From NCBI GenBank assembly GCA_025463865.1, contig JAODBH010000119.1, forward strand, positions 1-33,386: a stretch of 33,386 nucleotides of DNA, read 5' to 3'. The DNA is from Actinomycetes bacterium (GTDB taxonomy: Bacteria; Actinomycetota; Acidimicrobiia; IMCC26256; Chersky-534). Of the stretch, positions 11,962 to 14,049 are shown one piece after another (positions within the stretch are counted from its first letter, which is position 1; the number at the start of each line of letters is the position of its first letter). Below the pieces are notes generated by a model. That model made no database searches and was not told the origin of the DNA. It saw only the letters and a program-made list of their open reading frames with translations. Position numbers and translations under genes: made by a program.

Positions 11962-12531
11962 TCAGGTGGGGCCGCTGCTCCCGAGCCCGGCGCTCCCGGG
12001 GCCGTCGCTCGCGGTTCCCGCGTTCGCGCCTTCCTTGCCGCCCTCCTCGAGCGCGGCCTTCACCCGCACGATCCCGAGTCGCACCTGCGCGAGCGCCTCG
12101 GCGAGCGTGGGTGCGTTGGGACCGAACCGGTCGCCCAGGGCCTCCACGACACCGCCGAACGCGTCGGCGGCGATGCTGGCCTCGCCCACACGGCGCAATC
12201 GCTCCTGGACCGGGAGCTCGACGGCCTGGGCCGCGATCGACAGATGCAGCATGGCCAGCTCGTAGAGGCCCACCGCGTGGTTGGCCACCACCTCGATCGC
12301 CGGCGTCGCCGCCAGTTGGGCCTGGAACTCCCGGAGCTCGGCGAGCGACTCCTCGTCGAGCTCCACCGGCTGATCCGGGGCCGCCGACTCGCCCCCGAGG
12401 TAGGCCTCCTGGGGAGGACCGCCCGGACCGCCGCTGAACGGGGCGCCGCGGCCGGGACCGCCCGGGCCGGGTCGCGCCGGGTCCTGGGGTGCCGGCTCGG
12501 GCCCGCTGTTGGGTGTCCACAATCCGCTCAC
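11962..12531 (-). CDS. Conserved hypothetical helical protein with Pro/Gly-rich N-terminus
   Basis: [34 protein letters not shown]-like helical region; AAGGA SD 7 nt before GTG; divergent from infC. Confidence 0.6.
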
Positions 12532-12549
12532 GCTGGTATCCTTCCTGTT

Positions 12550-12572
12550 CGGCTCCGATCTGATCGGTGCCG
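12550..12572. promoter_or_regulatory. 23-nt dyad-symmetric operator candidate
   Basis: CGGC-T-CCGATC-T-GATCGG-T-GCCG: 10 of 11 base pairs symmetric around a central T. Confidence 0.6.
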
Positions 12573-12683
12573 CACAACATTCGAGACGTGGGAAGTGGGC
12601 CCCGGTTCTCCCGGTGCCCCACCCGGCCAGCCATCAGTCTGCACCCTGAGGCCGAAAAGCTGCGCCCCGGGTCCGTACATCGC

Positions 12684-12760
12684 CCGGCCGTCCACGCGGC
12701 CGGTTCGACGGCGGACGCTTCCCGTGTCCGCCGTCGGCGCGTCTGCGCCGCGGGCAGACG
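12684..12760 (+). promoter_or_regulatory. Structured infC 5' leader: three tandem hairpins
   Basis: H1 CCGGCCG/CGGCCGG 12684-12703; H2 CGACGGCGGAC/GTCCGCCGTCG 12706-12736; H3 CGTCTGC/GCAGACG 12740-12760; then aaaggcg SD-like. Confidence 0.7.
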
Positions 12761-12774
12761 AAAGGCGAAACCAC

Positions 12775-13401
12775 ATAGCCACGACCGAAGCCAGGATCAA
12801 CGACCGCATCCGTGCCCGTGAAGTGCTCCTCGTCGCGTCCGACGGTGAGCAGCTCGGGGTGAAGCCGCTGCCTGAGGCGCTGGCGATCGCCCGGGCCGAC
12901 GAGCTGGATCTGGTCGAAGTCGCGCCCAATGCCAACCCGCCCGTGTGCCGGATCATGAACTACGGCCGGTACAAGTACGAGCAGGAACAGCGGCGCAAGG
13001 AGTCCCGGCGCAAGACCACGAACGTCGTCGTCAAGGAAATGAAGTTCCGTCCGAAGATCGACGGACACGACTACACCACGAAGATGAAGCACGTCGAGCG
13101 CTTCCTGATGGAGGGCTCCAAGGTCAAGCTCACGATCATGTTCCGAGGGCGCGAGATGGCCCACCCCGAGCTCGGCCTGAGGATCCTCCAGCGGGTCGCC
13201 GAAGAGGTCGCCGACTTCGCGGTCGTCGAGCAGTCACCCAAGCAGGACGGTCGCAACATGACCATGATCCTGAACGCAGCCAAGAAGCCCGAGACGAAGA
13301 CCAAGGCCAAGGCGAAGGCGAAAGCCCAGCCGGACGCAGCGCCGAGCACCGGACCCGAGTCCGGTGTACCGGTGGCCGAAGAGACCACAGGAGCCCCGTA
13401 A
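12775..13401 (+). CDS. infC: Translation initiation factor IF-3, apparent AUA start
   Basis: [20 protein letters not shown]...VDLVEVAP-like ([26 protein letters not shown]), [29 protein letters not shown] overlap with rpmI. Confidence 0.93.
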
Positions 13402-13598
13402 TGCCGAAGATGAAGTCGAACCGCAGCGCGAAGAAGCGGTTCAAAGTCACGGGGACCGGCAAGTTCATGAAGCGCCAGGCCTTCCGTCACCACAAGCTCG
13501 AGCACAAGCCCAGCACCCGCACGCGCCGCCTGAAGGGCGAGGCGGAGATCACGGGCAAGTTCCGCAAGCAGGTTTCGCACCTGTTGGGGCTTTCGTAG
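13401..13598 (+). CDS. rpmI: 50S ribosomal protein L35
   Basis: [31 protein letters not shown]. Confidence 0.97.
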
Positions 13599-13686: not shown

Positions 13687-14049
13687 ATGGCAAGGGTCAA
13701 ACGCTCCGTCAACGCCCGCAAGCACCACCGGGCGATCCTCGAGCAGGCCGAGGGCTACTCGGGCGCGAAGAGCCGTCACTTCCGCAAGGCCAACGAGCAG
13801 GTCATGCGGTCGTCGCAGTACGCCTACCGCGACCGCCGGGTGCGCAAGGGCGAGTTCCGGCGTCTCTGGATCGTCCGCATCAACGCTGCGTGCCGACTCC
13901 ACGACATGTCGTACTCGCGGTTCATGGCCGGCCTGAAGGCTGCGGAGATCGACGTCGACCGGAAGGTCCTCGCCGACATCGCGGTGCGCGACGACGCGGC
14001 CTTCGCCGCCCTCGTCACCGCCGCCCGCACGGCGCTCGAGGCGGCCTGA
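13687..14049 (+). CDS. rplT: 50S ribosomal protein L20
   Basis: [50 protein letters not shown]. Confidence 0.98.

Follow-up and report, generated by a model that had tools for sequence, protein, structure and literature searches.

Leaders controlled by ribosomal protein L20 have so far been reported in Gammaproteobacteria, Firmicutes and Deltaproteobacteria, and the site recognized by L20, in known leaders and in rRNA, consists of an AA dimer and two G–C pairs separated by a helix (PMC7247131). At the level of the start codon, IF3 autocontrol is documented for infC in E. coli, and an ATC start has been noted in Streptomyces (PMC5472188). For Actinomycetota, the M. tuberculosis infC 5′ UTR has been described as homologous to the infA 5′ UTR and compared with B. 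subtilis L20 control (PMC3207917), and Scr1601, which turns up in one paper of the literature searched, is described there as a UTR-located sRNA (PMC8388888); in this literature, with subscription journals mostly outside the search, we found no structural link drawn between L20 and the infC leaders of Actinomycetota. Our work here adds Acidimicrobiia, where the infC leader is quite likely a structurally new variant of the autoregulatory leaders that bind L20, built on a scaffold of its own and combined with IF3 autocontrol at the start codon. The fold has not been described before in this class.

The window, a 33,386-nt stretch of DNA from an Actinomycetes bacterium of the class Acidimicrobiia, carries infC, rpmI and rplT on the plus strand (Table 1), and Pfam bears out their predicted identities as the genes of IF3, L35 and L20; the last base of infC, 13401, is also the first of rpmI. 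The infC start codon is ATA, and thus none of AUG, GUG or UUG, and it is likewise non-canonical in 53 of 53 relatives (ATC, ATA, CTG or ATT). Because of this uniformity and the established work on IF3 (PMC5472188), we propose IF3 autocontrol through the AUA codon. On the minus strand, a divergent gene whose product has no Pfam match begins with a GTG at 12531 (region 12529–12578); its AGGATA Shine–Dalgarno sequence reads TATCCT on the plus strand, at 12537–12542, where it could double as a −10 element, and ACAAC comes next in most relatives.

Table 1. Features of the infC leader and operon, with window coordinates.
Feature	Position	Strand	Sequence and remarks
Pseudoknot 5′ strand	12590–12596	+	GGGAAGU; alignment columns 1–7; invariant AA dimer at 12593–12594; AAG in 50/50 leaders
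P2 hairpin	12597–12619	+	GGGC/GCCC, 12597–12600 with 12616–12619; 92% of cells paired; 3/4 pairs covary
CACCCGG	12620–12626	+	Unpaired C12620, then P3 5′ strand (12621–12626); C12620, C12622 and C12623 invariant in 50/50 leaders
P3 3′ strand	12667–12672	+	CCGGGU; G12670 and G12671 invariant; P3 96% paired, 3 pairs covary
H1	12684–12703	+	CCGGCCG/CGGCCGG; free-sequence hairpin between P3 and H2
H2	12706–12736	+	CGACGGCGGAC/GTCCGCCGTCG, loop GCTTCCCGT; arms 12706–12716 with 12726–12736; conserved, presents pseudoknot loop
Pseudoknot 3′ strand	12717–12723	+	GCUUCCC, in H2 loop; 7-bp long-range pairing with 12590–12596
CGCGUC block	12738–12743	+	2–5 nt 3′ of H2; kept in most leaders listed
H3	12740–12760	+	CGTCTGC/GCAGACG, loop GCCGCGG; genus-only; overlaps CGCGUC block
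Shine–Dalgarno	12761–12765	+	AAAGG; 9 nt before ATA
infC (IF3)	12775–13401	+	Start ATA at 12775–12777; Pfam IF3_N 4.6e-31, IF3_C 6.9e-37
rpmI (L35)	13401–13598	+	Pfam Ribosomal_L35p 1.2e-18
rplT (L20), presumed ligand	13687–14049	+	Pfam Ribosomal_L20 1.7e-43

The original prediction read three tandem hairpins upstream of infC as a candidate ribosomal-protein or IF3 autoregulatory RNA. All of their stems lie where they had been placed, H1, H2 and H3 are all present in the minimum-energy fold, and the 111-nt segment folds better than its dinucleotide shuffles (z −3.3; 2 of 200 shuffles as good). Together, they are merely the 3′ half of a larger leader element that starts near 12590 and has its core upstream of H1, and they differ from one another in conservation status. 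We located infC in 55 of 58 same-order genomes and read the leaders upstream. Across the whole order, H2 is conserved with covariation, 8 of its 9 pairs having changed on both sides among relatives, and a strong hairpin of unrelated sequence occupies the H1 site in 27 of 51 order-level leaders at p ≤ 0.05. The recurrence of H3 in these leaders is at chance level (6 of 51 at p ≤ 0.05; median p 0.52), which led us to reject it as a component of the conserved element, and as such it is common only to the window and the same-genus genome. The original prediction had also missed the key tertiary contact, between the H2 loop and 12590–12596. Pairing of the CGCGUC block with the 5′ tail shows no excess over shuffles (537 versus a mean of 525 and a maximum of 567), and no partner was found; in other Acidimicrobiia the block joins directly onto the pseudoknot strand (CUUCGCGUC).

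Comparison of sequences shows a shared leader structure with a pseudoknot and an rRNA-like core, its linkage to infC and the use of non-canonical starts. The conserved blocks upstream of H1 read GGGAAGTGGG ... CCCCACCCGGCC ... CCGGGTC, followed by H1, H2 (loop CTTCC) and CGCGTC, and make up a core at 12590–12672 of the form AAG-N-[P2]-C-ACC-[P3]. In a gap-free block alignment of 50 distinct order-level leaders (A3), eight columns are invariant (A4 A5 G6, C17, C19 C20 and G29 G30), and two C–G pairs of P3 (12622–12671 and 12623–12670) are kept in 50/50 leaders. Over the whole fold, 91.2% of cells are paired versus 83.1% after shuffling, with 17 double-change pairs versus 10.3 and 108 double-change cells versus 31.8 (0 of 500 shuffles as good), figures to be read with the knowledge that about 20 anchors were hand-placed with pairing in view, that the H2 arms were aligned by pairing and that the shuffles ignore phylogeny. 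When the partner strands are slid against each other, pairing falls from 91% to 39–55%. Conservation and covariation in relatives had been set as the test that could refute the prediction; covariation was found, the outcome went against refutation, and the proposal of an autoregulatory RNA is well supported by comparison. A shifted register for P2 and P3 was rejected, with 41% of cells paired. The extra C of CCCC can be bulged (G12597–C12620) or serve as an unpaired linker (G12597–C12619), both forms pairing in 92% of cells, and we prefer the linker since it matches the CACC of other leaders. In family f16 (L041, L067), both strands of P3 have changed together, to ACCUGA/UCAGGU, giving a naturally compensated form of the L20 core.

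The long-range pseudoknot taken alone is paired in 93% of cells, with 15 double-change cells versus 3.2 in shuffles (0 of 500). Compensated variants comprise GAGAAG/CUUCUC (L021), GGCAAG/CUUGUC (L024) and CGGAA/UUCCG (L025), these three sitting inside clear H2 loops, as well as GACAAG/CUUGUC and CGGAAG/GUUCCG. The pairing recurs with new sequences in other Acidimicrobiia (GCGAAGU/ACUUCGC, GCAAAGU/GCUUUGC and GGAAAGC/GCUUUCC), where it reaches p ≤ 0.05 in 11 of 20 core-bearing leaders, and is absent from a few members (L036, L034 and L011).

Among the columns that never vary in the 50 aligned leaders are an AA dimer and two adjacent C–G pairs, with a helix in between, the same determinants that the literature assigns to L20. 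The leader thus shares with the functional class of L20-binding r-leaders both these determinants, the AA dimer and the two consecutive G–C pairs, and a covarying structure tied to the L20 operon. The 23S rRNA gene of the home genome was not found in the assembly, and E. coli 23S rRNA served for comparison; the 5′ part of a 16S rRNA gene lies at the contig end (32871–33386). Positions 971–992 of E. coli 23S rRNA, which we take to be H40/H41, with the G residues near 1162–1163 as presumed partners of the CC, read GAAGAGGGAAACAACCCAGACC (G-AAG-A-GGG-AAACAA-CCC-AGA-CC) and present the same order of elements as the core: AAG, one base, a GGG/CCC helix, a short linker and CC. The core resembles H40/H41 of E. 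coli 23S rRNA, with P2 as the counterpart of helix 40.

From 16 leaders, with families f10, f12 and f7 left out, we built a covariance model for the core (R1), whose one match in the home genome is the infC leader itself (12589–12674, E 2e-6). Across the order, 33 matches have E < 0.02, and every one of them, in the three left-out families too, immediately precedes infC; most of the six weaker ones lie away from any known infC. The model also picks up leaders from further orders of Acidimicrobiia, and the core recurs before infC across Actinomycetota, a phylum in which ribosomal-protein feedback has been little studied: it is present in 42 of 60 other Actinomycetota leaders sampled over the phylum, versus 0 of 60 reverse complements and 13 of 353 control windows. 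Rfam L20_leader matches precede infC in some other Actinomycetota, one of them above the gathering score. Another infC, preceded by a leader of its own (L002), is found in the home assembly on a 4-kb contig (C35); its N-terminus resembles that of family f2 (L042), and it is therefore probably a contamination of the metagenome-assembled genome.

We infer that the infC–rpmI–rplT mRNA begins with an L20-binding leader, in which the module AAG-N-P2-C-ACC-P3 would imitate the H40/H41 junction of 23S rRNA. L20 in excess of free rRNA sites would bind this module and lower expression of the operon, most likely by shifting the balance between the pseudoknot and H2 and so changing transcription read-through or ribosome access, while the AUA start would independently allow IF3 to throttle its own translation. 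As far as sequence can tell, a surplus of L20 is probably sensed in these bacteria and answered by lower expression of the operon. Because the invariant AAG, presumed to contact L20, also belongs to the pseudoknot, L20 and the H2 loop may compete; within the pseudoknot the AA dimer is base-paired, whereas in rRNA it is described as docking with the G–C pairs. Pseudoknot and L20 binding may be mutually exclusive, with a switch that could work in either direction. We are doubtful of a bolder version, in which the pseudoknot hides the L20 site through the same AA dimer, L20 frees H2, and the same core brings much of Actinomycetota under L20 control, including Scr1601 and possibly the long mycobacterial infC leaders.

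How binding would be transduced is the point on which alternative models diverge. As in a Bacillus-like attenuator, L20 could favour H2, which would end transcription ahead of infC as an intrinsic terminator whose U-tract is weak; this is a serious candidate toward which we nonetheless lean slightly negatively. In Coriobacteriia and in Streptomyces-size genomes, the leaders carry the core and, between it and infC, a clear terminator with a U-run; Scr1601 has been reported as an RNA of Streptomyces (PMC8388888), and in M. tuberculosis the 326-nt infC 5′ UTR reaches 2.6–4.9 times the abundance of the coding part (PMC3207917). Within the order, the four positions after H2 (+1 to +4) show a mild excess of T (0.63, 0.47 and 0.50 versus a background of 0.15), but in the window H2 is followed by no U-tract and no terminator-like site was found in 12480–12830. 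Nor did we find a covarying antiterminator: the GTCCG:CGGAC alternative, seen by eye, was rejected as a conserved one, being missing by inspection from several families. The lack of a terminator in the window would suit translational control of the kind exerted at the E. coli rpmI operator, where the L20 site is also a long-range pseudoknot (PMC10931766), with pseudoknot and L20 competing with the 30S subunit at the infC ribosome site. We find this rather unlikely, however, since the E. coli operator precedes rpmI rather than infC, the Shine–Dalgarno sequence is in neither pseudoknot strand, and the distance between H2 and the start codon ranges over 30–126 nt within the order, which does not readily fit a simple occlusion of the ribosome site. 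Masking of the Shine–Dalgarno sequence by CACC:GGTG pairing, possible in relatives (GAGGTG), was rejected for the window (AAAGG).

It is improbable that IF3 alone regulates the operon through the AUA start, with the leader structures acting as passive stabilizers of the mRNA; the uniformly non-canonical infC starts, the autocontrol documented in E. coli and the ATC start noted in Streptomyces speak for this model, but it leaves the invariant rRNA-like core, its covariation and its conservation across classes unaccounted for. Finally, the hairpins lie in a G+C-rich region between divergent genes, where TATCCT doubles as the Shine–Dalgarno sequence of the minus-strand gene, and could be by-products of high G+C or a DNA signal in a divergent promoter region. 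Compensatory changes, the single genome-wide match and a fold better than that of shuffles make this very hard to credit; it is contradicted by covariation for H2, P2, P3 and the pseudoknot, and may stand for H3. An L20-binding leader combined with IF3 autocontrol remains our preferred reading of the locus.

Among known systems, the Rfam L20_leader of Bacillota (RF00558) lies, like the leader in the window, upstream of infC–rpmI–rplT. The original prediction that the architecture is unlike that of the Bacillus leader holds, in that RF00558 has no match in 12300–13100 at E ≤ 10 and none in the window at gathering, and in place of a rho-independent terminator with a U-tract before infC, we find the long-range pseudoknot with the H2 loop. 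It does not extend to the core, however: AAGN-[helix]-CACC is common to the L20_leader matches L139, which reads AAGA-AGAAGC..GCUUCU-CACC, and L157. No Rfam family matches the leader in the window at a meaningful level, even at E ≤ 10. This includes Scr1601 (RF02830), which is the infC leader in two Streptomyces-size genomes (L171 and L198; 171 and 184 bits), where it is probably an attenuated infC leader; as in the window, it holds an L20-type core (ACAAGUGGAG..CUCCCACC), but it ends in a strong terminator and is filed as an sRNA rather than as an L20 leader. Our results offer a testable function for Scr1601 and for the abundant M. tuberculosis infC 5′ UTR. The E. coli operator shares the long-range pseudoknot and the mimicry of 23S rRNA (PMC10931766), yet uses another scaffold at another gene boundary, between infC and rpmI, with infC itself free of L20 control, whereas the element described here lies upstream of infC. 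Similarly, the L20 r-leader motif of Deltaproteobacteria presents an AA dimer and two G–C pairs separated by a helix (PMC7247131), in another phylum and on another scaffold. The Acidimicrobiia leader would thus constitute a further case in which one rRNA site is reused on different RNA scaffolds.
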